A stretch of 64,000 nucleotides of DNA from Caenorhabditis elegans (Eukaryota > Nematoda > Chromadorea > Rhabditida > Rhabditidae). Location of the stretch: contig NC_003280.10 of the NCBI RefSeq assembly GCF_000002985.6, positions 1,984,001 through 2,048,000 of the forward strand, given 5' to 3'. The notes beneath the pieces are model-generated. The model was not told the DNA's origin. It was given only the letters and a program-made list of their open reading frames with translations, and searched no databases. Shown piece after piece: positions 18,511-63,517 of this stretch. A program made the translations under genes and the position numbers. Every line of letters begins with the position of its first letter. Position 1 is the first letter of the stretch.

Positions 18511-18689
18511 TGTAGAGAAATTTTGTCGGAGTAGTCAAATTTAACTTTGTTTGACAGAAAAAAAAGTATGAAGGGGAAGATAGTTTGAACCACAGAAGGT
18601 TCACACCAAATTCCCGCACACAACCAATGCGACATACCGGCACATTTGTTTAGAATTTAATAAACCTATAGAAGAGGAAAACTTCATGC

Positions 18690-19345: not shown

Positions 19346-19376
19346 AAAATTATCATTTTCTCATTATTAATCAACA

Positions 19377-24250: not shown

Positions 24251-24267
24251 ATAAAGCTTATTATTCT

Positions 24268-43305: not shown

Positions 43306-43363
43306 TGCGCATCAGTTAAATAGCATTGTGTGCAAGTGCGTACTTCCTCGGCTACCGTAGTTT
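43306..43363 (-). promoter_or_regulatory. BATH upstream element
   Basis: TGCGCATCAGTTAAATAGCA then TTGTGTGCAAGTGCGTACTT and GGCTACCGTAG. It lies about 700 bp upstream of the BATH start at 42610, displaced by the two repeats in between. A partial second CTTCCTCGGCTACCGTAG follows at 43371. Confidence 0.6.
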
Positions 43364-43695
43364 AACTTAACTTCCTCGGCTACCGTAGTTGAGTCAATTT
43401 TTGGGAATTATTTATCGATTTGCAAGCGAATTTCAATGAAAACTAGAAGAATTGAGTAGTTTGACCAAGATTTCAGCAAAAAAATGGATGAAAAACTGTC
43501 GGAATCAAGGAAAACCAAGATTTGAAGAGCTAAAGAGGGAATTGATGTCAGATATTTTAGAAATGGACAAAAACATCAATAATTATTCAATTTTTGCATA
43601 CAAAAAAGGGTAAAAAGCGGAACTTTATTCGTAATTTCAACAAAAAATTATTTTTTTAAAAATGCGGGAGTATAAATAGAACTCGATCAAAAATA

Positions 43696-44798
43696 TCAAA
43701 GAAGAGCCAACGATTTACGGAAAAGAGCCGCCACCACAGTCGGATCCATGTCGGCCAAATCGCACATCAATGCCGCTTTGATCTCCTCGACTGTATTCAC
43801 TTTGGAGAGACAAGACTTCTGAAAAAAATCGTTTTTTCCCCGAAAATCACGAATATTCCCACTTTCAAATTGTCCAGCTGATATTTCTTGGCGATTTCAA
43901 GTTGATCCCTCATCGATTTTTCAGATTTTTCGATCAGAAACTCTTCGCATTTTCGAATTGCAACAGGTACATCGTACATGTGGGCCAAGTGAAGAATTCC
44001 TTCCACGTCATCATCTGAAATTTAAATTTATGTTTACTGCAGAAAGTAATTTTGAACGATTTTACCATCGATAACCGGTTCACCATACAGAACCTCCAGA
44101 AAATTCTGAAAATCGATGGAATTGATGGCTTCATGTTTGATCTCCGATTTATCAGCTTCCGCGAATGTTCCGAGAAGAAGAGACTTGAAATATGAAGAGT
44201 GGGAAGCGAGGAACTGAAAAGAAAATCGATAAATTTTTTTTAATGGCATAAAAAACACTAACTTTTCTGAGAACGAAGAACTTTTTGTCTTCAACTGCAA
44301 GAACCACATCGGAAAATTGTTCCTCAGATTTCTCGAAGCTTCTCAGCTTTTTCTTCGAGATCCCTGTCATTTTGGTGATCATGACAGTTGCTTCCATGAT
44401 GATACTGTCATTAACCAGGTGATCCTTCACTAGGGTATCCCAACTGACGAACTTACGTCGGCCAAATCCGCCTATACTTTGAAAAATGTAGGTAGAACTG
44501 TGTGACAGGCATTTTCCCGCCGAGGAAGTTAGTTTCAAGATGCAATCAGCGTTGATTTCCCAGGGTACGATGCCATCGGTTGGTCTCAGACAACGGAGGA
44601 AGACACCAACAAATTCTTCTTTGCGACAGAATGACAATTGCCTGAAAATAAAAAGCTGGAGATTATTCGAGAAGTGTATTTTCTATCTGACCATGGAATA
44701 TTGAAATGTTCTTCTTCGGGACCATAAAGAGTTTTTCCATCTTCCAATTTGGATACATTTTTGAACGTGTGAGTGAGATGAAACTCCTTTTTGACCAT
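43696..44798 (-). CDS. BATH (MATH+BTB) protein
   Basis: Exons in coding order: 44798-44692, 44641-44263, 44213-44066, 44014-43863, 43818-43696; 909 nt, 302 aa. MATH: VKKEFHLTHTFKNVSKLEDG to K-F-V-S-W-D-T-L and D-S-I-I-M-E-A. BTB: EEQFSDVVLAVEDKKFFVLR, FLASHSSYFKSLLLGTF, FLEVLYGEPVID. BACK-like tail: GILHLAHMYDVPVAIRKCEE, MRDQLEIAKKYQLDNLK, then SCLSKVNTVEEIKAAL and a stop after RKSLALL. Predicted CUL-3 substrate adaptor by family. The conserved upstream element lies about 145 bp before the ATG. No lesions seen. Confidence 0.88.
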
Positions 44799-44940
44799 TC
44801 TGGAGAGTTTTTCTGGAATTAGATACGAATTTTAAAAAATCCGATTTTTCTCACATTAGCCTGACTAAGAAAGTGTAAAGTGTTTTGAATTTTGATGAAA
44901 AATCGAGAAAAAACTATTAATTTCTGAAAAAAAAACCAAT

Positions 44941-44999
44941 GCTCGTCAATTAAAGTGCATTGTGTGCGCTTGCGGACTTCCACGCCTACCGTAGTTTGC
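44941..44999 (-). promoter_or_regulatory. BATH upstream element
   Basis: GCTCGTCAATTAAAGTGCAT, TGTGTGCGCTTGCGGACTTC, CACGCCTACCGTAGTTTGC; 143 bp upstream of the start at 44798. Confidence 0.65.
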
Positions 45000-45324
45000 T
45001 CGATTTTTTTTTTGAAATTTTCACGAATTCTATCGAATTTCTAATTCAAAACTGATTTTTTAGTGTTTTTCAGGCAAAAAAACACTAAAAAAGAGAAGGA
45101 AAAATGCTTATAAATCGCAAAGTTCAAGTTCTAAATTGCTGAAAAGGCGATTTTGCTTAAAAACCGCCCCCGAATATTCTTTTGGTTAGAAACTACCAAT
45201 ATTAATCAATTTTAGTCGCTAAAAATCGAAAAAAAAAAACAGAATTTTATTCAACAATGTCAACAATAACAAGTAACAGGGATAAAACAGTAACATAAAA
45301 CAGAAACATTAATTCCTCGAAAAA

Positions 45325-46463
45325 TCAATGAAAAGTCAGAGTTTTCTCGAGAAGAGCCGCCAGCACAGCCACATCCATTTCAGTCGAATCGCCAGCCAAC
45401 GCCGCTTTGATTTCATCGATTGTACTGATTTTCATGAGGCAGGACTTCTGAAAAATTGGATTTTTATTGATTTTTCGATTTTGTTTTTCAGGTTTTTACC
45501 TTCAAATTCTCCAGCTGATACTTTTTAGCGACTTTGAGCTTCTCCTTAATTGGTTTTTCAGAAAAATCGATGAGGAATTCCTCGCATTTTCGGGTTGGAA
45601 ATGGCATATCGTACATATGGGCCAAATGGAGAATTCCTTCGATGGTGTCCTCTGAAATTTGAATTTTTAGCTTATTTTTCTTGAAAATTTCTTGAAAATT
45701 CTTGAATTTCCCACCATCAATAGCCGGTTCGCCATACAGAACCTCCAAAAGATTCTGAAAATCCGTGGAATCAATGTCCTTGAGCGCGACTTCTGAAATC
45801 TCGGCTTCCTTGAAATTCCCGAGAAGAAGAGCATTGAAATAGGTGGAATGGGAGGCCAGGAACTGGAAAAAATCGATAAATTTTTACGAAAAATTGGAAA
45901 AAATCGAAAAAAAACCCCCGTACTTTCTTCAAAACATGGAACTTTTCATCTTCAACAGCGAGAACTACATCGGAAAATTCTTCCTCGGATTTCTCGAAGC
46001 TTCTCAGCTTTTTCTTGAGAATTCCAGTCATATTGGTGACCTTAACAGTTGCCTCAGCAATAATAATATCATCAATTATGTAATCCTTCGCCAGCATCTC
46101 CCAACTAATAAATTTCTTCCATCCGTAGACGATATTCTCCAAATTTGTGAATTTAACGGTGGTTTTTTCCGTAGATCGTTTTCCGCAAGAATTTTTCAGC
46201 GTAAATTCGAATTCGGCATTGATGCACCATGTTTCTTCAGTTTGTCCCAGTATATTGCAGTGTAGATAGACTGCCATGTCTTCTTTCTTGTGAGAAACTG
46301 CCATATACCTGAAAAATTGAGAAATTTGATTACTTCTGGAAAAAATTGACCATTGAACGTTGAAATGCTCTTCACTTGGGCTCAGAAGAGTTCCTTCGTC
46401 CTCTAATTTCGATACATTTTTGTAAGTGTGGAAGAGCTGGAATTCCTTGTTTGTGGCGACCAT
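45325..46463 (-). CDS. BATH (MATH+BTB) protein
   Basis: Exons in coding order: 46463-46351, 46308-45924, 45862-45715, 45651-45500, 45447-45325; 921 nt, 306 aa. MATH starts VATNKEFQLFHTYKNVSKLE; its second exon has VYLHCNILGQTEETW and KKFISWEMLAKDYIIDD. BTB: EEEFSDVVLAVEDEKFHVLK, FLASHSTYFNALLLGNF, NLLEVLYGEPAID. Tail: GILHLAHMYDMPFPTRKCEE and SCLMKISTIDEIKAALAGD, ending EKTLTFH. All splice sites are canonical. Predicted CUL-3 adaptor. The upstream element lies about 135 bp before the ATG. Confidence 0.88.
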
Positions 46464-46597
46464 TTGGCTGAAATTTTTGATTTTTCGAGTTGAAAATACT
46501 GAATTTTCTGGTTTTTGTGACAAAAAAGCAACTTTTTTCGACAAAATGCGCCTGAATACCGATTTTTTATCGAAAAATCCCAAAATAAAAATGTTTA

Positions 46598-46655
46598 CGC
46601 GTCAAGTCTGGTGTATTGTGTGCATTGCGGACTCTATGTTGCTTACCGTACTTGG
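46598..46655 (-). promoter_or_regulatory. BATH upstream element
   Basis: GCGTCAAGTCTGGTGTATTG, TGTGCATTGCGGACTCTATG, TTGCTTACCGTA; 135 bp upstream of the start at 46463. Confidence 0.65.
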
Positions 46656-46838
46656 CCGCTTTTTCTGTCATTTTTTAAATCGAAAAGTGACTTTTTGGCA
46701 GGAAAATGTCGGAAAGTTGATGAACACCGCTTATTTTAACTGCCGCAGATTAAAAACAACAAGGATTCATTCAAAATTTCAACAAAAAACAAGGATAGAA
46801 TAGTTAAGGTAAAAAATTAACAAATTCGATCGTAAAGA

Positions 46839-47938
46839 TCAATGAAGAGCCAGTGATTTTCCGAGAAGAGCCGCCAGCACACTCAAATCCATTTCAATTG
46901 GATCGCCTGTCATTGCCGCTTTGATATGATCGACAGTTTCGATTTTTGAGAGACAATGCATCTGAAAAATTTGATTTTTAGAGTTTACACAGACCGGGAG
47001 AGCTTTTTTACCTTCAACTTCTCCAGCTGGAATTGCTTAGCGATTTTAAGCTTCTCCTTTATCGATTTTTCAGACAAATCGATAAGGAATTCCTCGCATT
47101 TGCGAGTTGGGAACGGCATATCGTACTTGTCAGCCAAATCACGAATTCCTTGAACAGTTTCCTCTGAAATTTACAATTACTAGTTGAATTTTATGCATTT
47201 TTTACCATCGATAGCCGGTTCTCCGTGCAACACCTCTAGAAGATTCTGAAAATCGATGGAGTTGATATCCTGAAGTGTATATTCTGATTTTTCAGCTTCT
47301 TCCTCGCATTTTCTCAAAAAGAGTGTCTTGAAGTGTGAAGAATGAGAGGCGAGGAACTGAAAAATATTACTGAATTCAAAAAGGAAAATGGGAAAAATAA
47401 ACCTGCTTCAAAACGTAGAACTTCTCGTCTTCGACAGTCAGAATCACATCGGAAAACTCCTCGTTCGACTCATCGAATGTTCTGAGCGTTTTCTTCGGAA
47501 TTCCCATCAAATTTATGATTTTTACAGTGGCTTCCATGATGATGACGTCATCGATCAGGTAATCCTTGATCATTGCGTCCCAACTAACCAATTCAGCAGT
47601 TCCAAATCCTGTTGAGGTCGAAAATTTATACTTAAAATCTATTGAAATTCGTTTCCCACTCGAGTTTTTGAGTGCAAGATCGTATTCAGTATCAATGGAC
47701 CACGCGGATGCACTCTCTTCCGATTTATAGCAATAAAAATATACTCCCAATTTTTCTTTCTTGTGAGAAATTGACATATTCCTGAAGATCATTTTATATA
47801 TCAATAAAATATCATAAAAGCTTACCAATCAACATTGAAATGATCTTCATCGGGACTATACAAATATTTTCCGTCCTCCAACTGTGATACATTCTTGAAA
47901 ATGTGCCTGAGCGTGAATTTCTTTTCAGTGGCGACCAT
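46839..47938 (-). CDS. BATH (MATH+BTB) protein
   Basis: Exons in coding order: 47938-47826, 47781-47403, 47356-47206, 47163-47012, 46961-46839; 918 nt, 305 aa. MATH: VATEKKFTLRHIFKNVSQLE, later VYFYCYKSEESASAWSIDTE and ELVSWDAMIKDYLIDDVIIM. BTB: NEEFSDVILTVEDEKFYVLK, FLASHSSHFKTLFLRK, NLLEVLHGEPAID. Tail: GIRDLADKYDMPFPTRKCEE and MHCLSKIETVDHIKAAM. Intact. Predicted CUL-3 adaptor. Confidence 0.88.
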
Positions 47939-48374
47939 TTCGAAGAGTCTTGCTGAAAATTAAAATTATTAAAGTCGCAAAAACTGAAAATGAGTGGGTT
48001 AGCATCAATAGATTTAATAATTTATTCGTTTCGGAACATTTTTTTTAAATGAAAATACTGAAATTGTGAACGAAAATATGGAAAATATATCGAAAAACAA
48101 ACTGGAAAATCACAAAAAAAACGGATTGCGCGTCAATTCAGGTGCATTGTGTGCAATGTGAACTTTTTCGCTTACCGTAGTTTTGCGAGATTTCTTTTTC
48201 GATTTATTGATTTTTTTTTGAAACTCTTGCCCATATTAATTTGCTTTTTCTTGTTTTTTATCGAAATTTAAATGGAAAAATTATTTTAAGTACTATATAA
48301 TTTTTATTCAACAGAATAAATTCAAAAATTCCCCAAAATCATTTTTTCTGTCGATTGTTATTCTTTTTTCAACA
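47939..48374. other. Intergenic with one upstream element
   Basis: Contains the BATH upstream element at 48126-48180 and otherwise A/T-rich sequence. Confidence 0.5.
48126..48180 (-). promoter_or_regulatory. BATH upstream element
   Basis: TTGCGCGTCAATTCAGGTGC, ATTGTGTGCAATGTGAACTT, TTTCGCTTACCGTAG; about 190 bp upstream of the start at 47938. Confidence 0.65.
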
Positions 48375-48562
48375 GACTTCAAACTAATGCGCCCGAAAGG
48401 CTCGAAAAATTGTCTTTAAAATTTGCAAATACAGTGTGAAACTATCACTTTCCGTATAAAAATATTTGGAAGAAAGAAAAAACTAAATTTGAATGCGCGC
48501 GCAGAAGGTGTTCAACAGAGCGCGTTTGCTTTTCGAGCCTTTCGGGAGTATTAATTTGAAGT
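48375..48562. mobile_element. MITE with ACTTCAAA ends
   Basis: The left end ACTTCAAACTAATGCGCCCG(AAAGGCTCGAAAA) and the right end TTTTCGAGCCTTTCGGGAGT(ATTAATTTGAAGT) form an imperfect terminal inverted repeat of about 33 bp; 188 bp long. BTB homology starts immediately at its right edge. Confidence 0.75.
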
Positions 48563-49137
48563 ATGTTCAGCCAACGAAGGAACGGATGCAATTCTGGTGA
48601 TTGGAGACAAGAAGCTTCATGTTTCCAAAGCGGTAAGTGGCAAAAAATGTTTATGTTTCTAATTCCATTATTATTTTCAGTTCCTCTCCTTCCACTCAAA
48701 CTTCTTCCGTAAACTTTTCTCATCAAATTTCAAAGAATCTGAAATGACTGAGATTCCAATCAAGGATGTTACGTACGAGGACTTTTGCCTGATGCTGGGC
48801 ACAATCTACCCGAGAACAATTTTTCCAAATGGTAAAAATATTTTCTCAATAGTTCAAATATAAATCATTAAGATGTTTTAACTTTTCATTGAAATTCCTT
48901 TTTTCAGATGAAACTTCCGAGAAACTTCTCGAAATGGCTGATCGTTTCCTGATTCCAGCTGTAACTAATATTGTGGAACAGCAACTTCTCTACAACAGCC
49001 AAATGCAAAATGAAAAACTGATTCGCTTGGCAGATCAATATCAAATGAAAATGCTTCTCAATAAATCGACTTGGAAGGTGGATTCACTCGAAAAAGTGAA
49101 GGAGTTAATCAAAACCTTGGAGTACGAGAAGCTTTAA
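48563..49137 (+). pseudogene. BTB gene fragment lacking its N-terminal domain
   Basis: Exons: about 48563-48632 (SANEGTDAILVIGDKKLHVS), 48681-48831 (FLSFHSNFFRKLFSSNFKES, later MLGTIYPRTIFPN), 48908-49137 (ETSEKLLEMADRFLIPAVTN, QYQMKMLLNKSTWKVDSLEK, stop after LEYEKL). The BTB and following helices are intact and in frame, but there is no in-frame ATG and the N-terminal domain present in the minus-strand relative at 59089-60087 is absent, replaced by the MITE. Unless a downstream Met is used it is a dead fragment. Opposite strand to the BATH array. Confidence 0.65.
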
Positions 49138-49485
49138 CTTCGCTGGATTCTAATTTTTTCTTCTATTTTTGTCGTTGTTGTTGTCCTTTACTGTTGACTT
49201 TTCGAATAAAATCACGATGTTTTGTTATAAACTGAAACAGACGAAATGGATTCGAAAATTGCCAATTTGGTCGAGTGGAAACCTTTTTTTCACAGAAAAT
49301 TAGCTAAAATTTCGGCTTCTTCATTTTCAAGCGATTTCTGAGTAATCCACCACGAATGTCGAATTTATTTTTGTTGAAATACGAAATAAATTGATTAAAT
49401 TGAGTTTTCCATGTTTTATTTCGAAGAAAATCAAGTTTTTGAAGAGAATTTTAATTAAAAAATCGTCAAAATTGGTTTAAAATCC
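49138..49485. other. Spacer sharing BATH-promoter sequence
   Basis: 49268-49470 matches, in the same orientation relative to transcription, the region 55936-55600 upstream of another BATH gene (shared TCGAGTGGAAACC, GGCTTCTTCA, AAGCGATTTCTGAGT and AAATTGATTAAATTGAG blocks). Confidence 0.6.
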
Positions 49486-49545
49486 TGCAAACTACGGTAG
49501 ACAATGGAGTACACAGTGCACATGATACACCAGAATTGACGCGCA
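49486..49545 (+). promoter_or_regulatory. BATH-type upstream element, plus orientation
   Basis: CTGCAAACTACGGTAGACAA, TGGAGTACACAGTGCACATG, then CCAGAATTGACGCGCAAAC; 92 bp upstream of the plus-strand ATG at 49637, oriented to that gene exactly as in the minus-strand BATH genes. Confidence 0.65.
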
Positions 49546-49636
49546 AACAGATTTTTGAGATTTTGATTCGATTTTTCTCTTTTTTGCTTGAATTCTGTAT
49601 TTTCAGACAAATTTTAAATCAATTTTCAATCAAAAA

Positions 49637-50522
49637 ATGGAACCTTGTCGCGATACGAATGAAATGGTGAGTAGAAACAAATGATGACAAGTAGTATGAA
49701 GATTATTTTACTTTAAAAAGATTTCCAGAAAAAATTTTCTGAAAAAAATTTTTTTTTTCCTTTTAGAAGTTTCTTGAACTTTCCAAAAAAATTATTGATA
49801 TTTCTTTAAAAAATTCTCAGTTTCTAGAAGTCCCACTAATCTTTATCTTATTTTTTGACGTTTTTCGAAATAATTGGTTGTTTCCAGAAATTGATATCTA
49901 AAAAAAGGCCATTGAAAGTTCCTCAAGGTTTCATACATCGCACAAAAAATTCTCTCGTTCTCAAAATATGTTTTTTTCTGATTTTCAGAGAACCCCAAAC
50001 CAATATCTCTTCCAAAAACAAAAAAAAATTCAAGTTTTCCTAAACTATAGTGCTCCTACCGTACTGCAAAAGTACCCTAGTACTGCATTCCGACCATATC
50101 CTCAAACCAATACCACTTCAAAAGACGAAAAGTCAATTTGTCCAAATCCCAGTCTACAAACTAAAAAATGAGACCCTGTCATGGAACAATACGAAATTAG
50201 AAAAAAAAAATTATAAAATAAGTTTTGAATATCTTACAGATTTCCGAGTCTCAAAAGACAAAGCTCGCCGAAAAATACGGAGAAGAAGAAGTACGACTGG
50301 TTGAGGTAAGGTTTTAAAAATGAGAAACGTAGCTATATTCAATATTTGTAGAGATATCTTCACAATTCGGGTAAATCGATGAGCTTGAAGAGCTATAAGT
50401 CCACGTTGGAGACTCGTAAAGCAAGATGCACAACGGACGCCCAAAAAGGCGGAATAGAACTCGATCCCGTGATATGGAGAAAGATAGGAGAAAACAAGCT
50501 CTATTGGATAAGAAGAATTTAG
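49637..50522 (+). CDS. Unrecognised 88-aa protein gene
   Basis: Exons 49637-49666, 50240-50305, 50352-50522 join in frame: MEPCRDTNEM, then ISESQKTKLAEKYGEEEVRL, then RYLHNSGKSMSLKSYKSTLE, ending KIGENKLYWIRRI. Donors are gtgag and gtaag; acceptors acag and gtag. The first exon is echoed by a diverged copy of its sequence (AATGAGACCCTGTCATGG) at 50168, just before exon 2. No domain recognised. It shares the BATH-type upstream element although it is neither MATH nor BTB. From about 50430 a second frame is open and strongly basic/acidic (next entry), so the true 3' exon structure is uncertain. Confidence 0.45.
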
Positions 50523-50793
50523 AGCAGAAGATGAAGGAGGAGACACACTTGAAAAGAGAGGAAGAACGGACCAAGAAAAGATAAGAACATCTCAAACAAA
50601 AACAGGAAGAAAAAGAGAAAAAGAAAAAAGATGCAACAAACAAAAAGAAGAACAAGAAGATTGCTAAAAAAAGTTAGGCAACAAGGTATTCAGAATCCAG
50701 CAATCGAGGAAGATTCCAGCAGTGCTGGTGGAGATCTGGATGACGAAACTACTCCACTGCTGAAGAAGAAAAGCTCACAAAACCCATCCGGCT
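50430..50793 (+). other. Overlapping Lys/Glu-rich reading frame
   Basis: In the frame shifted from the preceding model: HNGRPKRRNRTRSRDMEKDR, then LDKKNLEQKMKEETHLKREE, a stop at 50581, then KQKQEEKEKKKKDATNKK, and a tail IEEDSSSAGGDLDDETTPLL near 50700-50780. It looks like a coiled-coil, charged C-terminus with one or two lesions. It may be the ancestral end of the same gene. Confidence 0.35.
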
Positions 50794-51063
50794 AAACTCT
50801 ACTCATTGTCGAGTTCGAACTATCATGTATTACAGTGGTTCACCACTCTCTTCAAATTGTGTTGTAATACAAATTGTGTTTTAAATTCAAATTGTGTTGT
50901 AAATTGTGTTGTAATTTGACTTTCTTTTCGGCTCCCTGCATGTCGTGGGACTCAAATTCATTGTGAGTATTGTACCACTTATTTTCCTTTTACACACTCT
51001 TTCTCTGCTCACCTTCGTGAATTGTCGATGGTATTCCTCGTTTCCCCCTTTGCCACACTCTCT

Positions 51064-51180
51064 CGGAATCAAGGGTGTCAATGTCCCGTAAAAATTAAAA
51101 AAACGGGACAACGGGACGTCCCGTTCCCGTGAAAACACCCCAAAAACGGGATAAACGGGACACGGGACTTGACACCCTTG
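51064..51180. mobile_element. Short inverted-repeat element with AAGGGTGTCAA ends
   Basis: AAGGGTGTCAATGTCCCGTA at the left and ACACGGGACTTGACACCCTT at the right. The interior repeats CGGGACAACGGGACGTCCCG palindromes. About 115 bp. Confidence 0.6.
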
Positions 51181-51260
51181 ATCCGGAAGAAATGGATCCG
51201 ACTGTCGTGGCGGCTCTTCTTAAAAAATCAACGGCTCTTCATCGCTCCGCCAACATTTAA
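51180..51260 (+). pseudogene. BATH C-terminal fragment, plus strand
   Basis: The frame DPEEMDPTVVAALLKKSTAL HRSANI-stop matches the end of the BATH last exon (MDPTVVAALFRKSLALL). The preceding part is replaced by the short inverted-repeat element. Orphan fragment in opposite orientation to the array. Confidence 0.65.
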
Positions 51261-51786
51261 ATTTCGCCTTCTGATTCAATAGAAAAATATTATTTCCTGT
51301 TTTAGTCTCGTTCAATAGTTAAAATTTATCCATGTCAAATAAAATACCGCATTTTTTATTCTTTAATCAATAAATTCTGACGCTTTCGGCTCACATCTTT
51401 TTTTCACCAGAAACCCGGGCTCCTCGCCTTCCTCATTGCATTTTCGCGCTCCATTGACAATCGCCTGCCGGACAACGCGTGGGAAAGTTGTGTATTACGA
51501 GCCATGACGCGACACGCAACGCGCCGTAAATCTACCCCGGCCGTGGCGCCGTCCAAATGACAAATTCTTGTATTTCAAAATATGCGGAAGCCAGAAGCGC
51601 GTGCAGAAACCCGAAAAATACCAAGCCCCTCCATCTGATTGGTTGAAAACTGGGCGGAGCGAATCTCTGATTGGTCGCAGTTTAAATTTTGGTTTTTAAT
51701 TATTTTGAAGCAAAATTTATGTCATTTCAAAGTGATAAAAAATATATCATGCAAATAAATATATACAAAGTAAGTATATTCACAAA
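51261..51786. other. Repeat-rich spacer
   Basis: 51410-51555 is a copy of the GCGACGCGACACGCAACGCGCC repeat; the rest is A/T-rich with no gene. Confidence 0.5.
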
Positions 51787-52390
51787 TTAGTAAATTTCCA
51801 ATGATATCACAAGAAGATCCGCCAACAAAATTGAATCCTTCCAGCCAGCAGCCAATTTCGCTTTGATATTATCGATTGAGTCGATTTTTTCGATGCAATT
51901 ATTCTGAAATAAAACCATATTTATAATACTGATTTTTTTTAAATAAATGGCTTCTACCACAAGGTTCTCCAGTTGGTAGTTCGTAAGCTCATCGTTGAAA
52001 TTTTCCGATTTTTCGCTCAAAAAATTCGCGCATTTTTGGTGTAGACGATGAATTTGAAGCCTGCAAGCCAAGTGAATGACCGCGTGGATCGTGCTCTCGG
52101 AGATTTGGAGCAAAAAATCCACACATTTTTGGACTATAAGCTTCATCTCAAGCTTGTGAGCCAGGTAGAGAATTGCGTGGGCGGTGTGGTCTGAAATTTG
52201 GATTTTTAAAATAATTATTCTCTTTTCCGTTCGCTTTTTCCACCTTCAACGTCAGATTCTCCGTATATAACCTCCAAAAGATTCTGAAAATCCGCTGCGC
52301 TGATGTTCTGAAGTGTGACATGGCGATCCTTGAAGTAGCTGGTATGCGTCGCTAAGACCTGAAAAATAACGAAATTCTTTCTTTTTTCGA

Positions 52391-53440: not shown

Positions 53441-53703
53441 GTAAAATGGCCAAATTCCATACTTGCTCATGAACGAAAAAGTCCCGGCCTTCCACAGAAA
53501 TCGCCAAATCTGTGCTCATATTGTCGAATTCAAAGTTTTTCAGCACTTTTTCACAACTTCCAGTCATTTCTATAATCTTAACAATCGCTTCCACCTCGAC
53601 AGTATCCCATGGCGACGACATTGATTCCCCATGGAGCTCCTGCATAATTTTCCAATTTCCGGCACGACAAATTGACTCCGAATCCATTTTTCTCACAGGA
53701 AAG

Positions 53704-55386
53704 TCACAGAGACCATTCGAAATTGAAACATCTTCCAGTTTTTGGTGGCCGTGGGGATTCTAGGTCATCAATTGTGTGGTAAATGTAGCCAAGTGTGAAT
53801 TCTCGTCTGACGGCCAACGCGGCTCTCAACTCGTCTGGTGAGCTCAGTTTTGTGAGACAGAATGCCTGAAAATAGAAAAATTTTAGAATGTTTTTTCATA
53901 TTTTGAAGGGTATTTTTCGCGCTCCATTGACAATCGCCCGAGCCGCGACGCGACACGCAACGCCCCGTTAATCTACCCCGACTGCGACTTTTCTACGAGT
54001 TGTCCGTCAGACGATTGTCAATGGAGCGCGAATCAATTAATACCTTCAAACTGTCCAGCCTGTATTCACTGGCAATTTTCAGTTTTCGATTCGTGGATTT
54101 CGTGCTCTTATTTGTCAAAAATTCTTCACACTTTTGAATTGGAAGTGGCATTTTATAATCGGTAGCCAGGTGAAGGATTCCGACGACGGTGTTTTCTGAA
54201 ATTTTATTATTTTGGCGGGAAATTCAAATTTTCAGAGAAATTTGCAGAAATTACATAATTTTCTATATATAAATCGCTATTACTGGAACCCAGAATACTG
54301 AGAATGCGTATTGAGCAACATATTTGACGCGCAAAATATCTCGAAGCGAAAACTACAGTAATCCTTTGAATGACTACTGTAGGCCGCGTGTGTCGATTTA
54401 CGGGCTCCCTTTTCCGTAAATCGACACAAGCGCTGCAGTAGTCTTTAAATAATTACTGTAGTTTTCGCTTCGAGATATTTTGTGCGTCAAATATGTTGCA
54501 AAATACGCATTCTCAAATAAAAATATATTGATAGAAACATTTTTGGCGGGAAATTCAAATTTTCTGAGACAATTTTTTGGCGGGAAATTCAAATTTTCTG
54601 GGGGCAATTTTTGGCGGGAAATTCAAATTTTGGCGGAATAATTCCTAACCATCAATGGCAGGCATTCCGTGCAGAACCTCCAGAAGATTCTGAAATTCTG
54701 TAAGATCGTCGCCATCTAGCTTCACTTTCGAAATCCCAGGATCTTTGAGAAGATCCATAAAATATGCAGATTGAGTAGTTAGCACCTGAAAATTGATAAA
54801 AATTAGAATAAAAAAACCAAAAAAAGCCTAAAACCTCTCTCATAACGTAATATTCCGCCCAATAAGTTTCAATAAGCACTTCCAATCCGATTTCATTCGA
54901 TTTATCAAAGCTTCTCAGCACACTTTTGCAATTTCCAATCGCTTTTCGGATCTTTACGGAGACTTTTGCGTTGAAACTGTCACCAATCCGGTACACACAC
55001 TTGTTCCAGCTGATAAATTTACGGAATCCGTGTGAAAATGGCGCGTTTGTCGAAAATTTGAATTCGCCCCGCTTCGTCGTGGATTTAATGAACCGCCCGT
55101 CGAGTGTCATTTCGATTTCGGCTTCAATAAACCAAATGACACCGTCGTTTTTTGATTGCTTGCAGTGTATGTACATTCCCAAATCATCTCCATTGTGATT
55201 AATTGACAGATACCTGGAAATTTTTTACATTTTATTAGTTTTTATAGAGAAAAAAGCCTACCAATCGAAGTTGGCATGTTTTTTAACGGGACTAATCAAA
55301 GATTTATCGATTTTCATCTTTGATACATTTTTAAATGTGTGGGAGAGCACAAATTCCTTTTTATAGTCGTGTATTCCGTTGAGCAT
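53704..55386 (-). CDS. BATH protein with replaced C-terminus
   Basis: Exons in coding order: 55386-55262, 55213-54835, 54785-54650, 54195-54044, 53865-53704; 954 nt in frame, 317 aa. MATH: YKKEFVLSHTFKNVSKMKID, later MYIHCKQSKNDGVIWFIEAE and RKFISWNKCVYRIGDSF. The BTB is unusual: NEIGLEVLIETYWAEYYVMR replaces the usual FSDVVLAVEDKKFFVLRK, and VLTTQSAYFMDLLKDPG is 12 bp shorter. Tail: GILHLATDYKMPLPIQKCEE. The last exon starts normally (FCLTKLSSPDELRAAL) but after A-L-A-V switches to REFTLGYIYHTIDDLESPRP and stops. The new end reads, in another frame, through the remnant of the next BATH copy, a deletion fusion. Intron 3 (455 bp) holds repeats. It may have altered partner binding. Confidence 0.72.
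53915..54030. repeat. Partial GCGACGCGACACGC repeat inside BATH intron 4
   Basis: TTTTCGCGCTCCATTGACAA at the left and its complement TTGTCAATGGAGCGCGAA at 54016-54030 bracket GCCGCGACGCGACACGCAAC; an internally deleted copy. Confidence 0.65.
54215..54640. repeat. Palindromic repeat plus GGCGGGAAATTC units in BATH intron 3
   Basis: 54296-54520 is an inverted repeat (AATGCGTATTGAGCAACATA, TTGACGCGCAAAATATCTCG, AAGCGAAAACTACAGTAATC, TGTGTCGATTTACGGGCTCC and the complements), a repeat I recognise as typical of C. elegans. It is flanked by TTTTGGCGGGAAATTCAAAT units at 54215 and 54541-54640, related to the Helitron arrays. Confidence 0.75.
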
Positions 55387-55500
55387 CGCTGAAATGAGGA
55401 AATTTAGAGCGAAAAGACGTAAATGTATTTTTAAGGCCTGTTTTCTGCAAAAGAAACTGAAAAATTGCGATAAAAATTCGAGAAATGAAGTAAAAACCTG

Positions 55501-55559
55501 CTGCGCGTCAATTAAAGTGCATTGTGTGCATTGCGGACTCCATCGTCTACCGTAGCTGG
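55501..55559 (-). promoter_or_regulatory. BATH upstream element
   Basis: CTGCGCGTCAATTAAAGTGC, ATTGTGTGCATTGCGGACTC, CATCGTCTACCGTAG; 115 bp upstream of the start at 55386. Confidence 0.65.
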
Positions 55560-56367
55560 TGAGTTTTTTTTGGAATTAATTCGATTTTTGATCGAATTTC
55601 TCTGCAAAAACTCGATTTTCTGCGAAATAAAGCACGGAAAACTCAATTTAATCAATTTATTTCTAGTTTCGTCAAGAATAAGTGCGACATTCGCGGTGAA
55701 TCACTCAGAAATCGCTTGGAACTCACGTGTTTTCAGCTCGACCATTTGGTGTAATTTGTGCAAACACCGTCACGCGCAAATGCAGACATTTTTGCACGCG
55801 CTGCGGTGAAATTCCTCTTGGCAAATTCAAATATTTTTTCCCGCCTTTTTTGAAAATTTTCGAGGCGTTGGTCGAGCTGAATACACGTGGGAACTGAAGA
55901 AGCCGATAATTTAGTGAACTTTCTGTAAAAAAAAGGTTTCCACTCGGGCCGATTTTCACCGTTTCAAAGCCTAAAATCGTTAATTTTTTAGACGGGAACG
56001 CCACACGGTCTTCAACCATACTCGTGATTTCGCCAAGCTGTTCATCTAAATTTTTCCGCTTCTTTGTTCCAAATTTAGGAATTTGGCTCCTCTCTTCCCA
56101 TTTCTCCATTCATTTTCTAGGGCTTCATCGATTGTTACGTCGTTTCTTTTATTCAAGTTTCACCGAAAATCGGTCGGAAATCACACGAGTTCAAATTTTG
56201 AAGCGAGATCCGCCGGAAAATCCTCTAGTAGAGCCAGATAGGCTGATTTTAACCAAATTTTTGCAATAAAAATCGTATAATGCTTAATTTTATTCCAAAA
56301 GTCGGCAACATAGACAGCAAAACCAATAGAAAAGATCAAAAACCGGGAAATATCGATTTTCAGGAAA
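55560..56367. other. Spacer; one uncertain minus-strand ORF
   Basis: 55600-55936 is shared with 49268-49470. A 128-codon minus frame (56109-55723, starting MEKWEERSQIPKFGTKKRKN) overlaps this shared promoter-type sequence and is not supported as a gene. Confidence 0.4.
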
Positions 56368-57615
56368 TTATTTAATTTTCAATGCCTTCTGGAGAAGCGC
56401 CGCCACCACGGTAGTGTCCATTTCCAACAGATCTTCTGACAATGCCGCTTTGATTTCATCCGTTGTCTTGATTTTCATGAGTAGGGCGTGGCTTAAATTA
56501 CAGCCCAGAGGGATCACCACCAGGCAGTGTACCTGAATCCCAGATCCGCAGTGCATAGCACTTAAAGAACGGATCGTCCTTTAATCCTTTTTTTAATCCT
56601 TTAATGCTTTCTGAATAGAAAAATAATTAGAATTTTATTAAGATATGGAGATTTTTACCTTCAAATTGTACAGTTTGTGCTGCTTCGCGATTTTGACTCG
56701 ATCCTTCATTGGTTTTTCGGATTTTTCGCTGAGAAACTCGATGCATTTCTGGATTGCGAGCAGAATCTCATGCTTGAGAGCAAATTGGAGTAATCCATCG
56801 ACATTACTGTCTGAAAAAACAATTTTTTAATGGAAACAATTCGAAATATTTCAGTTTTTACCATTAATCGCAGATTCTCCGTAGAGAACCTCAAGAAGTG
56901 TCTGAAAATCATCTGCGTTGATGTCAGAGATTGTGACTTTCGATTCAGTAGAATCCCCGAGAAGGGTGTAGAAATAAGTTGAGTGGAAGGCGAGCAGCTG
57001 AAAAATAAAATGAATTATGAATTGAAAATTGGAAAAAAAATGATGACAAACCTTTCTGAGGACATAGAACTTTGTTCCTTTCACGTCAATAACCACATCG
57101 GAGAATTGTTTCATTGATTTATCAAAGAATCTGTGCAGATTTTCAATCACTCCAGACATCTTCGTGATTTTGGCAGCCACTTCAATGGTAATGCTGTCAT
57201 TGATCAGGTAGTCCTCTATCATTTCATTCCAACTCATAAACTTTGCACGTCCACTGCTACACCTTTTATTTGTAAACACACAGTCCAAATAGGGCAGACC
57301 GGACAGGGAGCGATAGCCATTTGGATCAAGGGCTGTCAGTTCAAAATGTCCATCAATGGTCCAGGCGACACCATCTTCATCTTTTGGCAGTTTGAGGCAA
57401 TAGCAGTAGGCTCCCAAATGATCAGCATTGCGTTTAATTTTCAGCATCCTGAAAGAATAAAATTTTATGATTGATATCTTTAAACTAAGAAATCGTACAT
57501 ACCATGGGATATTGAAATGCATTTCTTGTGGAGAATACAATTCATCACCGTCTTTCATTTTCAATACATTTGTGAAAACGTGCGAAAGCTTGAATTCCTT
57601 GTTAGCGACGACCAT
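56368..57615 (-). CDS. BATH (MATH+BTB) protein with small C-terminal insertion
   Basis: Exons in coding order: 57615-57503, 57448-57052, 56997-56862, 56810-56659, 56532-56368; 963 nt in frame, 320 aa. MATH: VVANKEFKLSHVFTNVLKMK; its long exon has YCYCLKLPKDEDGVAWTIDG, a slightly extended loop (SLSGLPYLDCVFTNKRCSSG) and KFMSWNEMIEDYLINDSITI. BTB: KQFSDVVIDVKGTKFYVLRK, LLAFHSTYFYTLLGDS (12 bp shorter), TLLEVLYGESAIN. Tail: LLQFALKHEILLAIQKCIEF. The last exon has about 42 extra bases (14 residues, VVIPLGCNLSHAL) before LMKIKTTDEIKAALSED; the extra sequence has no obvious source. Predicted CUL-3 adaptor; probably functional. Confidence 0.8.
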
Positions 57616-57890
57616 TTCGTTTAGTTCTCCTGTAATTAAAATTATTTAAAGTTGGAAGGAGATCAACAATTTCAGAAAAACTGCAACGAAAAATCGGGAA
57701 AACGAATTGGCCTGAAAATCGTGAAATTTTTCCCAAAAATAGAGCTTTTTGCGTGAAAAATGAAGCTAGAGATATGAAAAAAATTGAATGATAATTTTAA
57801 TAACATTTTTTGAACGAAAATATCGAATTTAGCGCAGAAATAAAGCCTGAAAATCACGAAAAGGCCGCAAAAAATTTCGAAAAACTGATT

Positions 57891-57947
57891 GTGCGTCAGT
57901 TATGATGCAGTGTGCAATGTGAACTTTTTCGCTTACCGTAGTCTGCC
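57891..57947 (-). promoter_or_regulatory. BATH upstream element
   Basis: GTGCGTCAGTTATGATGCAG, TGTGCAATGTGAACTTTTTC, GCTTACCGTAG; 276 bp upstream of the start at 57615. Confidence 0.6.
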
Positions 57948-57958
57948 GGGTTTTTCTT

Positions 57959-58227
57959 GAGACCCGAAGAACTCGGGGAATGTTCAATTGGGGGGATTGG
58001 CCCCGCCCACAGAACCGTGGCTTGCCATACGTCCATTTCTGCAACTGCCGCACGGTTTCGAAACTGTATTTTTCTCAATAGAGCGAGAATTAACAAGAAA
58101 AATACAGTTTCAAAACCGTGCGGCAGTTGCAGAAATGGGCGTATTGCAAGCCACGGTTCTGTGGGCGGGGCCAATCCCCCGAGTTGGTAATCCCCCCAAT
58201 TGAACATCCCCGAGTTCTTCGGGTCTC
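57959..58227. mobile_element. 269-bp GC-rich palindromic MITE
   Basis: The arms GAGACCCGAAGAACTCGGGG and complement enclose GGATTGGCCCCGCCCACAGA, ACCGTGGCTTGCC and the mirrored copy. The right arm has a roughly 14-bp insertion (CCCGAGTTGGTAAT). The centre is TCTCAATAGAGCGAGAATTA. It sits exactly where the neighbouring gene stops being homologous to its relative. Confidence 0.85.
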
Positions 58228-58522
58228 TAAAATTGGTTTCTTTTTCGATCGTTTCCAGTGGGTTTTTCAAGTTGATTTCCAATTTTAGTGGAGGAAAATC
58301 AGAGTATCCAGAAATTGGTTTCACACTAACATATCCCGACATTCCACACACTCCAAATGATTTTAGTCCTGTCCAGTCGAATTTCCAGGTCAATTTGTTA
58401 TTTGCATAGCTCCACACGCTGAAATGATTCGATTCTTCAGATTTTTTCCTGATAAAAAATGACCTACCATTTGAAGCACTCTGCTGTGTGTTCCCGTGAA
58501 ATTTCGTCTCTAATAAAAACAT
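58228..58522 (-). pseudogene. N-terminal piece of a BTB-subfamily gene, cut by MITE
   Basis: Exons 58522-58468 (FLLETKFHGNTQQSASN) and 58418-58228 (VWSYANNKLTWKFDWTGLKS, FGVCGMSGYVSVKPISGYSD, LETIEKETN). The next gene on the same strand (60087) has the same domain (WSYANNKSTWKFDWSGLKPF, GVCGMSGYVCVNP) followed by BTB. Here the MITE follows directly and no BTB exons are present. The upstream element is retained. Confidence 0.7.
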
Positions 58523-58678
58523 CTTTGAATTGATGCTCGATCCAGGAAGAAGACGAAAATGATATGGATTTATGACACATATAACATTTCCATTATTTAT
58601 GGTTATTTTTGGAATAATAAACAAACTAAAAATCAAGAAAAAGTCCTAAAAAACGGAACAAAAATCCAAAACATTGTT

Positions 58679-58740
58679 TGCTCGTCACTTAAAATGTATT
58701 ATGTGCATTGCGTACTCCATTCGTCTACCGTAGTTTGCAA
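58679..58740 (-). promoter_or_regulatory. BATH-type upstream element
   Basis: TGCTCGTCACTTAAAATGTA, TTATGTGCATTGCGTACTCC, TTCGTCTACCGTAGTTTGC; about 157 bp upstream of the start at 58522. Confidence 0.6.
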
Positions 58741-59088
58741 GATTTTTTTGAGAGTTATTTAATGAATTTTTTATTAAAATTATTATTGAAAACTCGATAT
58801 TTTCTTCAAATTCAGAAGCAGAATATCCAATTTAACCAGTGTAAATCTAGTTTTGCTTGAAATAAATCCCAATTTCACCGGAAAGTCACTCAGAAATGTC
58901 TTGAAACTGAAAAATTCACAATTTCCCGGCGAGTTTTCTATAAAAATCTCATTGGCTTCTCATTGGACCAAATTGAACTGTTCTGAAGGCGTTTTTCACC
59001 CGTTTTGTTGAAATAATTAACAAAAATTGCGTTTTTATATTCGAGAAATCAACAACAGAGATAACAACAACAACAAAAAATTAAAAAA

Positions 59089-60087
59089 TTAAGGTCCAGC
59101 GAGGCGATCGAGAATTTTGGCTTTTGTGTCACCGGAAAGCTTCTCGTACTCTGGAGTATTCTTCAACTGTCTCAATTTTGCGAGTGAATCCACCTTCCAA
59201 GTCGATTTATTGATAAGCATTTCCAATCGATATTGATCTGCCAAGCGAATGATCTTCTCATTTGGCAGTTTGCTGTTGTAGAGAAGATGATGCTCCACAA
59301 TATTGGTTACAACTGGCATCAGGAAACGATCAGCCATTTCAAGAAGTTTCTCGGCAGTTTCGTCTGAAAGATGGAAATTTAAATTGAATTATTAAGAACA
59401 TATTTTTACCATTTGGAAAGATCGTATCCGGGTAGATTGTGCTCATCACAAGTCCAAAGTCCTCGTAGGAAACATCCTTGATTGGGATCTCAGTCATTTT
59501 GCTTTCCTTGAATTTCGATGTGAAAAGTTTACGGAAAAAAAACCGAATGGAAGGAGAGGAACTGAAAAAAATAACGGATTATAATTTTTTTTAATTTTTA
59601 ATTTGGACCAACCGCTTTGGAAACATGCAGCTTCTTGCGTTCAATCACCAGAACTGCATCCGTTCCCTCGTTGGCCAAAAACATTTTATCGTAAACTTCA
59701 ATCTAATTACGGCGAGGAGTTAATGAGAATTCAATAATTGCATGGTGGTCTTGTACGGACGTGGCAGCTTTTTCAATCGTTTGCACTGGATATTTTAAGT
59801 CGACTTCGAATTTCAGTGGAGTAAATTGTGTGTAGGAAGGACGAGGGTTCACGCAGACATATCCCGACATTCCACACACTCCGAATGGCTTCAGTCCGGA
59901 CCAGTCGAATTTCCAAGTTGATTTGTTATTTGCATAGCTCCACAAGCTGAAAATAATCGTTTTTTGAATAGTTCATTGGTTGAAATACAATTACTCACCA
60001 TTTGAAACCATCCACCTCATGTTCTTTTGAAATTCCTTCTTTAATAAAACCGGAATAGAGTTCAAGTTTGATCGTTTGAATCTCCAT
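59089..60087 (-). pseudogene. BTB-subfamily gene with stop and frameshift
   Basis: Exons in coding order: 60087-59999 (MEIQTIKLELYSGFIKEGIS), 59946-59613 (WSYANNKSTWKFDWSGLKPF; then LTPRRN-stop-IEVYDKMFLANEGTDAVLVI), 59560-59410, 59363-59089 (ETAEKLLEMADRFLMPVVTN, stop after LDRLAGP). Two lesions: an in-frame TAG between R-R-N and I-E-V, and a run of eight T in the BTB exon where the plus-strand relative implies one fewer, which shifts frame to an immediate stop. The rest is well conserved, so loss is recent. The N-terminal domain looks MATH-like, but I could not place all strands. Confidence 0.78.
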
Positions 60088-60308
60088 TTTGAAGAGAAAG
60101 GCCTGCAATTGCTTCGTATTTAAAAAAAATATGTTAAAAACAAGCAAAAAGTCGAAAAATACCGAAAATTCGAGGAAAACATGAGAACATTTGTTAGGAA
60201 ATTCATTAAAAATAGTATTTATTTTATTTTACGGTTATTCTTCGTATGAAAATACAGGAATCAAGAAAGAAAATGAGAAAGAACAAAACAAAATCCCAAG
60301 AAGCTGTT

Positions 60309-60370
60309 TGCGCGTCAATTGGAATGCATTGTGTGCACTTGCGTACCCCCCTCGTCTACCGTAGTTTGCA
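60309..60370 (-). promoter_or_regulatory. BATH-type upstream element
   Basis: TTGCGCGTCAATTGGAATGC, ATTGTGTGCACTTGCGTACC, CTCGTCTACCGTAGTTTGC; 222 bp upstream of the start at 60087. Confidence 0.65.
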
Positions 60371-60701
60371 GGATTTTTTCGATTTCAAATGAAAATTTTG
60401 ATCAATTTTCATCGGCAATCTTCTAGAAAGCTCAATTTTCTTCCAGATAAAGCACACGAAATGTAATTTAACTAATTTAGTTCTCATTTCGACAGAAATA
60501 AATTCGAACTTCGCAGGAATTCACTCAAAAATAGCATGAAACCGATTTTTCCATGAAAAAGCTGGCAAGTGGATCAATTCGACAAATTTCACTTTTATTT
60601 TCCCAGTTTTATTGCGATTTTTGAGAAAAAGCTCGTGATTTCATTCGGAAAAACAACAACAAAGTGAAAAAACAACGAAAAAAACAGAAAAACGAAAAAA
60701 A
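60371..60701. other. Spacer, no gene seen
   Basis: A/T-rich sequence with weak similarity to other BATH promoter flanks (TTCACTCAAAAATAGC). Confidence 0.4.
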
Positions 60702-61585
60702 TTAAGGAAGCGACGCAAAAAGCACTTCGTTCATTCGAACAAGAGCGGTGGATTTTTTGAGAAGTTCTGCCAGCACACTTGGATCCATTTCTGCAGGATT
60801 ATGAGCCATCGATGCTTCAATCTCATCCAACGTATTGATTTTTGAGAGGCAAACGGTCTGAAAATCGATATTTATTTCAGTTTTCCGGAATTTGGACAAT
60901 TCTTACTTTCAAATTCTCCAGCTGAAATTGTTTTGCGAGTTTAAGCAAATCTCTCATCGATTTCTTCGATTTTTCCACCAAAAATTCCTCGGATTTTCGA
61001 ATTGCCAAGGAAACATCGAACATTTGGGCCAGTTGAAGAACTCCATCGATGGTAGAATCTGAAAATCATACTATTTTAATGAAAGAAAAAAAATCTGTTT
61101 CATTTCGAACCATCAATCGCAGATTCTCCGTGAATAACCTCCATAAGGCACTGAAAATCAGTGGGGTCGATATCTTGAAGTGTGACTTCAGATTTGTCAG
61201 CTTCGACGAATTTTCCGAGAAAAAGAGTCTTGAAATACGTAGAATGAGAAGCCAGATACTGAAAAATATTGAATTTTAAATGAAAACAACTGGGACTTTA
61301 AAAAGAACATACCACTTTCAGAACGTAAAATTTCTCGTTTCCAACTGCAACAACCACATCGGAAAATTCCTCATTTGATTCATCGAAGCTTTTGAGCACT
61401 TTTTTCGAAAATCCAGTCATATCTGTGATCCTGACAGTTGCTTCAATGGTGATAGTGTCACCGATTAGGTAGTCATCTATCATTTCATTCCAATTGATAA
61501 ACGGACTCCAGCCCCATGAAGAGGTTTCGTTGCCGGTGCCAAAAGAATTTTTCGCATTCCTTGTAACGCTGTGAGCGGCGACCAT
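60702..61585 (-). CDS. BATH protein with a truncated MATH domain
   Basis: Exons in coding order: 61585-61313, 61258-61111, 61058-60907, 60857-60702; 729 nt in frame, 242 aa. The start MVAAHSVTRNAKNSFGTGNE fuses the first codons of a normal exon 1 (MVAA) to the middle of exon 2, so most of the first exon, its intron and the first half of the MATH domain are gone. The remainder is normal: PFINWNEMIDDYLIGDTITI, EEFSDVVVAVGNEKFYVLK, YLASHSTYFKTLFLGKF, GVLQLAQMFDVSLAIRKSEE, VCLSKINTLDEIEASM, with a slightly longer tail (VRMNEVLFASLP). The BTB is complete, so the protein could still bind CUL-3 without binding substrate (inference). Confidence 0.75.
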
Positions 61586-61776
61586 TCCGGTTACTTTTGC
61601 TGAAATTAACAATTATTAGCAAAAAGGGTAATTTAAACATGCGAAATTCGATGTAAATTGCATAGAGAAGTTTCAAATGATATTTGCGTCTATTTTGAGA
61701 ATAATTTAATAAAAAATAAACGACAAAATTGCAGAAAAACTGAGAAAAACTAAAAAACAAAGTTCAAAAAACTGAT

Positions 61777-61837
61777 TGCTCGTCAAATAAAATGCCTTGT
61801 GTGCATTGCGTACTTCCATTGCTTACCGTAGTTTGCA
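61777..61837 (-). promoter_or_regulatory. BATH upstream element
   Basis: TGCTCGTCAAATAAAATGCC, TTGTGTGCATTGCGTACTTC, TTGCTTACCGTAGTTTGC; about 190 bp upstream of the start at 61585. Confidence 0.65.
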
Positions 61838-62082
61838 AGATATTCTTCCGAATTTTTATGGAATTTTAATCAATTTCGACCGGAAACTCGATTTTCTTCG
61901 AATAAAATCCAATATATATATTAATTTTATCTGTTGTATCGGCTAGAATAATTTCGAATATCAAGAAATCATTAATTTATTCAAAAAAGTAAACGTGAAA
62001 AACAAAAAAAAACAACGAAAATAACAGAACATCAGGAAAAAGAAGTAATTCATTAGGTTTTAAAATTAAAAAAAAAACTCAC

Positions 62083-63132
62083 TTTTCTCAAAACGAAAAA
62101 TTTTTTATCTTCAACGGAAAGAACCACATCGGAGAACTTTTCATTCGATTTGTCGAAGCTTTTCAGTGCTTTTTTAGAGATTCCGTGCATTTTAGTGATC
62201 TTGACAGTGACTTCAATGGTAATACTGTCATCGATCAGGTAATCCTTTATCAGAGTGTCCCAATTCATAAGTTTGGGAAATCCATATCCTTCATTTTTCG
62301 TGAATTGGTGATCAGTTTTTTTCGTGATTCGTTTGCCATCGGAAGATTTGAGTGTAATCTCGTATTCGACGTCAATAGACCAGTCGATTTCGTCTTCTTT
62401 CAATTTGTCGCAGTGAAAGTAGACTGCCAAACGATTAGTTTTGCGAAGAATTTCAATAAACCTGAAACATATTTTATAGCAGGTTTAAATCTAATAAATC
62501 TTACCAAGGAATATTGAAATTTTCTGTTGACCGCCCAGTGTAAGCGGGTTGAGGAGCCGCAACTGGGGTCAAGCCGGAAGAAGAGTCTAAGAGAGAACTG
62601 GCGTTTGCAGAGTGCCGAGCGAAGAGGAGGATAAGCGGTGTGAACGAGTAACGCATGTTTTACCATGAAACCCCATTTATTAGCTAAAGAATGATAGAAA
62701 GGGAAGTGTTTAAATAGAAAGGGATTAAAAGAAGGAACGTGCCGCTGGTGCGGTGACGAGACGAGTGAAGGGAGTTGAGTTGAAACTAGTTTAGGCCAGC
62801 GAAATAGGACGAGCAAGGAGGGCGCGCGCGGTGAGACCCGCGGCGCACACTCGCTGCGAGACCATTGAGCTTGGCGGGAGATTCAAATGAGGGCGCGCAT
62901 TAGATTAGAGAAAGGGGGAGATAGAGCGACTGGAAGGAGCGGTTTATAGGTTTTCTGGTACGGCGAACACGATGGGAGTATTCGCGAGTGTCTCAGAGTA
63001 CCAAATAATTGGGAGATGGGACCATCTCACAACATGTTCTTCATTTGGACTGTATAATTCTTTGTCTTCTTTCAACTTTGATACATTCTTGAAAATGTGC
63101 GAAAGCTTGAATTGCTTATAAGCAGCAGACAT
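62083..63132 (-). pseudogene. BATH gene split by a solo LTR and missing BTB exons
   Basis: Exon 1 starts at 63132 (SAAYKQFKLSHIFKNVSKLK, DKELYSPNEEH) and is interrupted at 63034 by the solo LTR; its last bases (FNIPW) resume at 62524-62505. Subtracting the LTR and one 5-bp duplication gives exactly 113 nt, the normal exon length. Exon 2 (62461-62083) is intact: VYFHCDKLKEDEIDWSIDVE, KLMNWDTLIKDYLIDDSI, NEKFSDVVLSVEDKKFFVLR. After its donor (gtgagt) there are no BTB exons 3-5. Two independent losses, LTR insertion and 3' deletion. Confidence 0.8.
62525..63034. mobile_element. Solo LTR, 510 bp
   Basis: Begins TGTTGACCGCCCAGTGTAAG and ends ATGGGACCATCTCACAACA, so TGTTG...CAACA ends. Flanks TTTTC (62520-62524) and TGTTC (63035-63039) are a 5-bp target duplication with one mismatch. 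The interior is unusually GC-rich for the window (GGGCGCGCGCGGTGAGACCC). No internal retroelement genes remain, consistent with LTR-LTR recombination. Confidence 0.85.
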
Positions 63133-63411
63133 CTTGGTTAGTTTTTCTGAAATTTGTAGTATTTAAAGCTGGAAAAAGCTGAAAAGTCAAAGTTTCAAAG
63201 GATTCAGGCTGAAAATGAGAAAAATCACTACAATTGCATCATCCCGAAAACCACCGAAAATATCTTTGAAAAAAGATCGAATTGAAAGAAAATGTGGTTT
63301 AAAAAATATTTTTCAAACATTTTCTCAATTTTAATCACTATTTTAACATGGAAAAATCCGAAACTATGATCGAAAAACACGAAAAAGCCGCAGGAATATT
63401 CAAAAACTGAA

Positions 63412-63470
63412 TGCACGTCAATTATGATGTGTTGTGTGCAATTGCGTACTTCCACTGCTTACCGTAGTTT
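63412..63470 (-). promoter_or_regulatory. BATH upstream element
   Basis: TGCACGTCAATTATGATGTG, TTGTGTGCAATTGCGTACTT, ACTGCTTACCGTAGTTTG; about 280 bp upstream of the start at 63132. Confidence 0.6.
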
Positions 63471-63517
63471 GTAAATTTTCTTTGGAATTAAAATTTTTTT
63501 CGTGATTTTCACGGAAT

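Follow-up and report, generated by a model that had tools for sequence, protein, structure and literature searches.

A conserved three-box element upstream of BATH genes in Caenorhabditis elegans and its resemblance to one arm of a MITE-like transposon

In the MATH/BATH gene region on chromosome II of Caenorhabditis elegans, a short element made of three spaced boxes recurs ahead of gene starts, which raises the question of whether it is a mobile promoter, a switch shared by these genes, or an ordinary repeat that was copied along as they duplicated. We approached this question from a stretch of 64,000 nt within the region (II:1984001-2048000, hereafter the window), with genome-wide searches (100,286,401 bases, 7 contigs) and with profile searches that were limited to selected genomic stretches and that undercount distant copies outside them. 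The reading that we favour, with a probability of about 0.6, is that the element is a proximal promoter module derived from one inverted arm of a transposon resembling a miniature inverted-repeat transposable element (MITE), which has been under selection and has multiplied with the BATH genes.

Anatomy, conservation and placement of the element

Since the + strand copies precede genes on the - strand, the element reads towards the gene as CTACGGTA, then GTACGCA about 17 nt on, then TTGACGCGCA about 44 nt on, measured from start to start in 35 copies (nhmmer, E up to 1e-5, examined genomic stretches). The CTACGGTA box is exact in 29 of the 35, while five copies have one mismatch in it and one copy has two. 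GTACGCA carries 0, 1 and 2 mismatches in 15, 12 and 8 copies, respectively, and TTGACGCGCA carries 0, 1, 2 and 3 mismatches in 15, 8, 10 and 1, with 5 in one truncated copy. The starts of the first two boxes are 16-19 nt apart in 34/35 copies, and those of the first and third 42-46 nt apart in 29/35 (50-52 in 4, 37 in one and 26 in one). When 27 copies are aligned, the element stands out as an isolated conserved island amid AT-rich flanks, and T-rich runs are seen towards the gene. Long-form relatives, in which additional bases separate the middle box from the last, are found at II:1935033-1935151, II:2059140-2059234 and II:2479198-2479273.

Among 16 BATH genes, the mean pairwise identity of the element is 0.718 (0.499 when shuffled), against 0.518 (shuffled 0.502) in the distal and 0.550 (shuffled 0.519) in the gene-side 80-nt flank, and 0.541 (shuffled 0.509) in the 80 nt past exon 1, which are mostly intron. 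Exon 1 itself reaches 0.699; when it is codon-aligned, its third positions fall to 0.595 and its four-fold sites to 0.523. The element is thus evolving at a slower pace than the synonymous sites of the genes that it precedes.

A BLAST search with an 81-nt consensus found at least 18 places genome-wide, which is a lower bound because the consensus picks up no more than 7 of the 11 copies in the window. Sixteen of the 18 are within II:1.913-2.060 Mb, one adjoins an isolated BATH gene at II:13.12 Mb and one is at IV:1328705. A strict pattern of the boxes at the two ends gave 6 places genome-wide (control 0) and recovers 2/11 window copies; all 6 are family members by other searches too. Diverged copies ahead of the BATH genes at II:2.516, II:2.522 and III:7.776 Mb came out of profile searches, which gave no copy at E <=1 in II:1.5975-1.6065, 2.124-2.1325, 3.2955-3.3015 and 3.374-3.382 Mb. 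Most of the copies found sit in two tandem clusters on chromosome II, and the element is also present at two unlinked BATH genes, one at II:13.12 Mb and the other at III:7.776 Mb.

The association with genes was measured on the MATH matches listed in the examined stretches for which 1 kb of sequence upstream was at hand; those followed by a BTB match within 1.2 kb were counted as BATH and the rest as MATH-only. An element lies within 1 kb upstream of 14 of the 21 BATH genes vs 2 of the 75 MATH-only matches (2/39 of the 5'-most and 0/36 of the internal ones), some of which may be BATH genes with a missed or farther BTB, the MATH and BTB lists being best matches only. All 16 of these elements have the same orientation relative to their gene. 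The initial annotation of the window had named random placement with no orientation bias as the sign of an ordinary dispersed repeat, and this is not the pattern that we observe.

A palindromic copy and the spread beyond BATH genes

At I:11970017-11970165 there is a 149-bp palindrome whose two arms are whole elements facing each other. The arms (63 nt, 89% identical) score 42.9 and 42.6 bits, and each shows 73-81% identity to the five best other elements, with scores of 31-36 where shuffled arms reach at most 19.5. Terminal inverted repeats around a short non-coding core, a MITE trait, are present in this copy only, the 11 window copies being single arms. Because two elements make up the arms of this palindrome, the BATH element looks, from sequence comparison, like a solo arm of a MITE-like transposon. 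No gene was recognised from the open reading frames (ORFs) in 1.4 kb on one side of the palindrome, where no family search was made. Within the examined sequence, the 45 matches include pairs no more than 250 bp apart, of which 1 is palindromic, 2 face the opposite way and 2 are tandem.

The copy at IV:1328705 is the sole similarity to chromosome II sequence over 5.5 kb (21/21 matches), and no MATH or BTB match lies nearby among the matches listed. The inner half of the element, TTGCGTACT-N4-9-CTACCGTA, is more widespread, with 269 places genome-wide (reversed control 0); 64 of the 100 places listed are in II:2.17-2.58 Mb, mostly together with the word TTGCGTACTTTTGGCGCTACCGTA, and the flanks at 7 places are those of a different repeat. 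A parent resembling a Mutator-like element (MULE) was considered for the long form at II:1935033 and seems doubtful: four ORF pieces had no Pfam match, no inverted repeat pair of >=20 nt holds this copy in II:1930000-1938999, and the related place at II:2479198 (93%) is within a stretch rich in a different repeat.

Other gene families also have the element. A diverged copy is found about 360 bp upstream of a chromosome I ORF with an FTH domain (E 1.5e-19), in which the F-box match is weak (E 0.0048, below the cut-off), and a related copy is at I:12960115. The tandem array at II:3.4455-3.4537 Mb holds 6 copies, all on the + strand; for the 4 that were examined, related + strand ORFs start 145-215 bp downstream, so that the element is reversed with respect to the BATH genes, and these ORFs have no Pfam match above the cut-off. 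Two neighbouring + strand ubiquitin-like genes, at II:1.9247 and 1.9264 Mb, each have one upstream copy per orientation. The first (II:1924749-1925630) was recognised after joining two ORF pieces across an in-frame stop (Pfam E 6.9e-25) and the second (II:1926425-1927259) was assigned by ORF resemblance. Given these reversed or mixed arrangements, the orientation, although constant in the BATH genes tested, varies from family to family. The orientation lock proposed in the initial annotation thus holds within the BATH family (16/16) but is broken in another tandem family and in the Y75B12B.1 promoter discussed below. We propose that its constancy among BATH genes comes from the element having been copied with the genes in the clusters.

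The copies in the window and their genes

Eleven copies of a 58-bp boxed design had been described in the window, each upstream of an ATG, and a gapped scan returned exactly 11 (10 on +, 1 on -), all at the positions described, with 0 in 3 base-shuffled windows. The boxes were recovered in this way, whereas the literal 58-base string had 0 matches at <=3 mismatches because both the spacers and the boxes differ among copies. The distances to the predicted or possible ATG were also borne out, at about 92-280 bp in 10 copies and about 696 bp at 43306. The 10 + strand copies serve genes on the - strand, and 9 of the 11 copies are upstream of genes with a MATH match, a BTB match or a BATH-type first exon.

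Among the + strand copies, 43306..43365 belongs to a gene whose first exon is of BATH type (ATG near 42610), a BTB match lying farther downstream, and in tandem to it is a partial second copy with the CTACCGTA-side half only (+ strand, 43367..43402, II:2027367-2027402, E 0.0036). BATH genes follow the copies at 44940..44999 (ATG near 44798), 46596..46656 (ATG 46463, MATH E 1.3e-30), 48127..48185 (ATG near 47938), 57890..57946, which has a 2-nt deletion in the middle (ATG 57615), and 63412..63472 (ATG near 63132, MATH match 945 bp away). The copy at 55502..55560 precedes a MATH gene classed as MATH-only (ATG near 55386), and those at 60309..60369 and 61777..61836 precede genes with a BTB match (possible ATGs near 60087 and 61585). 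The copy at 58679..58738 faces an ORF with a possible ATG near 58580; this gene has no MATH or BTB match, and its 208-aa ORF is without a Pfam match.

The initial claim that the element stands before every BATH/BTB start was too strong, given this last gene, the 7/21 BATH genes of the examined sequence that are without the element, and a + strand BTB gene near 48.7 kb, whose sole upstream element is the 48127 copy in the opposite sense. The single - strand copy, 49487..49545, had been assigned to a plus-strand gene starting at 49637, for which we find no support: the possible first exon is 10 residues long, and the single downstream ORF checked has no Pfam match.

An Rfam search of window positions 42000-64000 gave no structured-RNA match at the gathering score. 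Elsewhere in the window, long inverted repeats at 1-1978 and 18024-19494 (one pair of 1290 nt at 94% complementarity and another of 469 nt at 84%), whose arms contain tandem repeats, flank 16-17 kb holding MATH genes. Helitron-like remains occupy 20012-25501 (Pif1 2B domain, E 1.6e-17; Helitron_like_N, E 0.0013, below the cut-off), and within them is a 62-bp tandem repeat of 20 copies (24265-25501).

Promoter evidence, known systems and competing explanations

In regards to a promoter function, a scan of the 20 promoters of PMC10366684 gave one clear match, Y75B12B.1 (24.3 bits, E 1.9e-7), in reversed orientation relative to the BATH genes; the best score in 20 shuffles of 14 of the 20 promoters was 3.4 bits, and the outcome for those 14 was the same. 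Y75B12B.1 is among 9 promoters reported there as germline-specific. The clustered bath and F-box genes of the left chromosome II arm are reported among the rapidly transcribed early zygotic genes (PMC10446496). Both lines of evidence are correlations.

What we infer for the transcriptional activity of the element, its binding factor and the order of events is that one inverted arm of a small MITE-like transposon became a cis-regulatory, proximal promoter module. Its boxes would bind one or more sequence-specific factors and might set transcription in the germline and/or the early embryo. The element would have reached several genes by insertion and then been kept by selection, and in the BATH clusters it would subsequently have been copied along with the genes. 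The mobile promoter and the shared regulatory switch suggested in the initial annotation both gain support from the unrelated genes, the chromosome IV copy, the palindrome on chromosome I, the conservation and the copy in the promoter reported as germline-specific, the promoter activity of the element itself being presumed.

Several observations weigh against this proposal. Seven of the 21 BATH genes, at II:2.12-2.13 and II:3.346-3.381 Mb, are without the element, the weak copies at II:3345064 and II:3348143 are near BATH genes yet are upstream of none within 1 kb, and the copies at II:2059521 and IV:1328705 have no recognised gene downstream. The palindromic arrangement is seen in one copy only and could also result from a local inverted duplication, and no target-site duplication was recognised by eye in its adjoining flanks. 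The other 8/9 germline-specific promoters have no clear match; W05F2.3 looks by eye like a long form but has a score of just 4.3 bits, and in klp-19 a single model out of three gave 7.2 bits (E 0.026). In PMC10446496 other motifs were tested, and the present element is unmentioned in the 12 of 18 text places covered. Finally, the distances among elements correlate weakly with those of exon 1 (Mantel r 0.18, p 0.12) and hardly at all with those of the stretch past exon 1 (r 0.09, p 0.24), the correlations with the distal flank (r 0.24, p 0.039) and the gene-side flank (r 0.38, p 0.0008) being higher. On these values, joint descent of the element and the BATH genes is plausible rather than clear-cut.

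The element resembles promoter systems already described in C. elegans. According to Carelli et al. 2022 (PMC9757741), the inverted repeats of the MITEs CERP2 and CELE2 carry the motifs m1 and m2, 10-30 bp apart, and became germline promoters driven by HIM-17; the m1m2 pairs number thousands, with targets enriched for meiosis and reproduction. Both systems have short spaced boxes in MITE or MITE-like inverted repeats near gene starts and a link to germline promoters, through the Y75B12B.1 copy in our case, but the boxes differ, the present element has at least tens of copies, and the targets found for it belong to the BATH family and to other tandem families. Sleumer et al. 2012 (PMC3575287) describe the motif pair 12-0/12-5, with a TACWGTA sequence beside one motif. 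It shares with our element a spaced pair upstream of genes and a TAC-GTA palindrome nearby, but its rpl-2 words CGTGGCGAGACC and TTAAAGGCGCA do not score in the element. Helitrons bound by HSF-1 upstream of fbxa-215 (PMC12062965) are likewise a case of regulatory sequence that a transposon carries ahead of a gene for a ubiquitin-ligase adaptor, whereas our palindromic copy is MITE-like. The word GCGCGTCAAATA is among the promoter words in PMC7534440. No description of the present element was found in the open-licence PMC literature among the matches listed.

The CERP2/CELE2 likeness raises the question of whether the element is a diverged member of that co-opted system, which the similar design, with spaced motifs in MITE inverted repeats and germline promoters, and the TACWGTA sequence would favour. 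We consider this improbable, since 0/34 elements reach the m1 or m2 score and their means are at or below background, the m1 and m2 models being approximations built on motifs 12-0/12-5 in the form seen at rpl-2 (36 + 7 instances) rather than the published matrices, and since the m2 word is present in the promoters of mex-5, puf-5, mei-2, rla-0 and puf-11. Many of the 36 m1 instances probably come from two 15-bp tandem arrays in the window (1898-1978 and 18009-18104), whose unit contains the m1-like word GGTCTCGCCACG or its complement.

An ordinary, functionless repeat co-copied with duplicating genes is a rather unlikely explanation, albeit with more in its favour: the wide occurrence of the inner half, mostly with the word of another repeat in II:2.17-2.58 Mb, the copies without a recognised gene at IV:1328705 and I:11970017, and the gene-side flank that tracks the element. 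It fits poorly with flanks and post-exon-1 sequences near the shuffled level, with an element identity of 72% vs 52% at four-fold sites, with the fixed spacing of the boxes and with the far greater frequency of the element before BATH than before MATH-only genes. The clustering of most copies in two tandem arrays would also suit gene conversion or unequal exchange, by which copies would be kept alike regardless of function. Such exchange should homogenise the flanks and the sequence past exon 1 too, yet these are near the shuffled level, and the unlinked copies at II:13.12 Mb and on chromosomes III and IV retain the boxes and their spacing, which makes this account improbable as well.

We thus return to the selected promoter module of MITE-like origin. 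More tentatively, and with some doubt, the element could represent a third MITE-derived promoter family of C. elegans, distinct from CERP2/CELE2 and served by another factor, which would have been captured by a number of fast-evolving families, of which several (BATH, F-box/FTH, ubiquitin-like) are ubiquitin-related, and would give them a shared germline or early-embryo programme; BATH and F-box genes are reported to evolve rapidly in Caenorhabditis (PMC10446496). The finding bears on how newly duplicated BATH and F-box copies gain expression, and a short, definable element across unrelated families makes the proposal directly testable. If true, it would be a further example of gene expression being rewired by the arms of a transposon.

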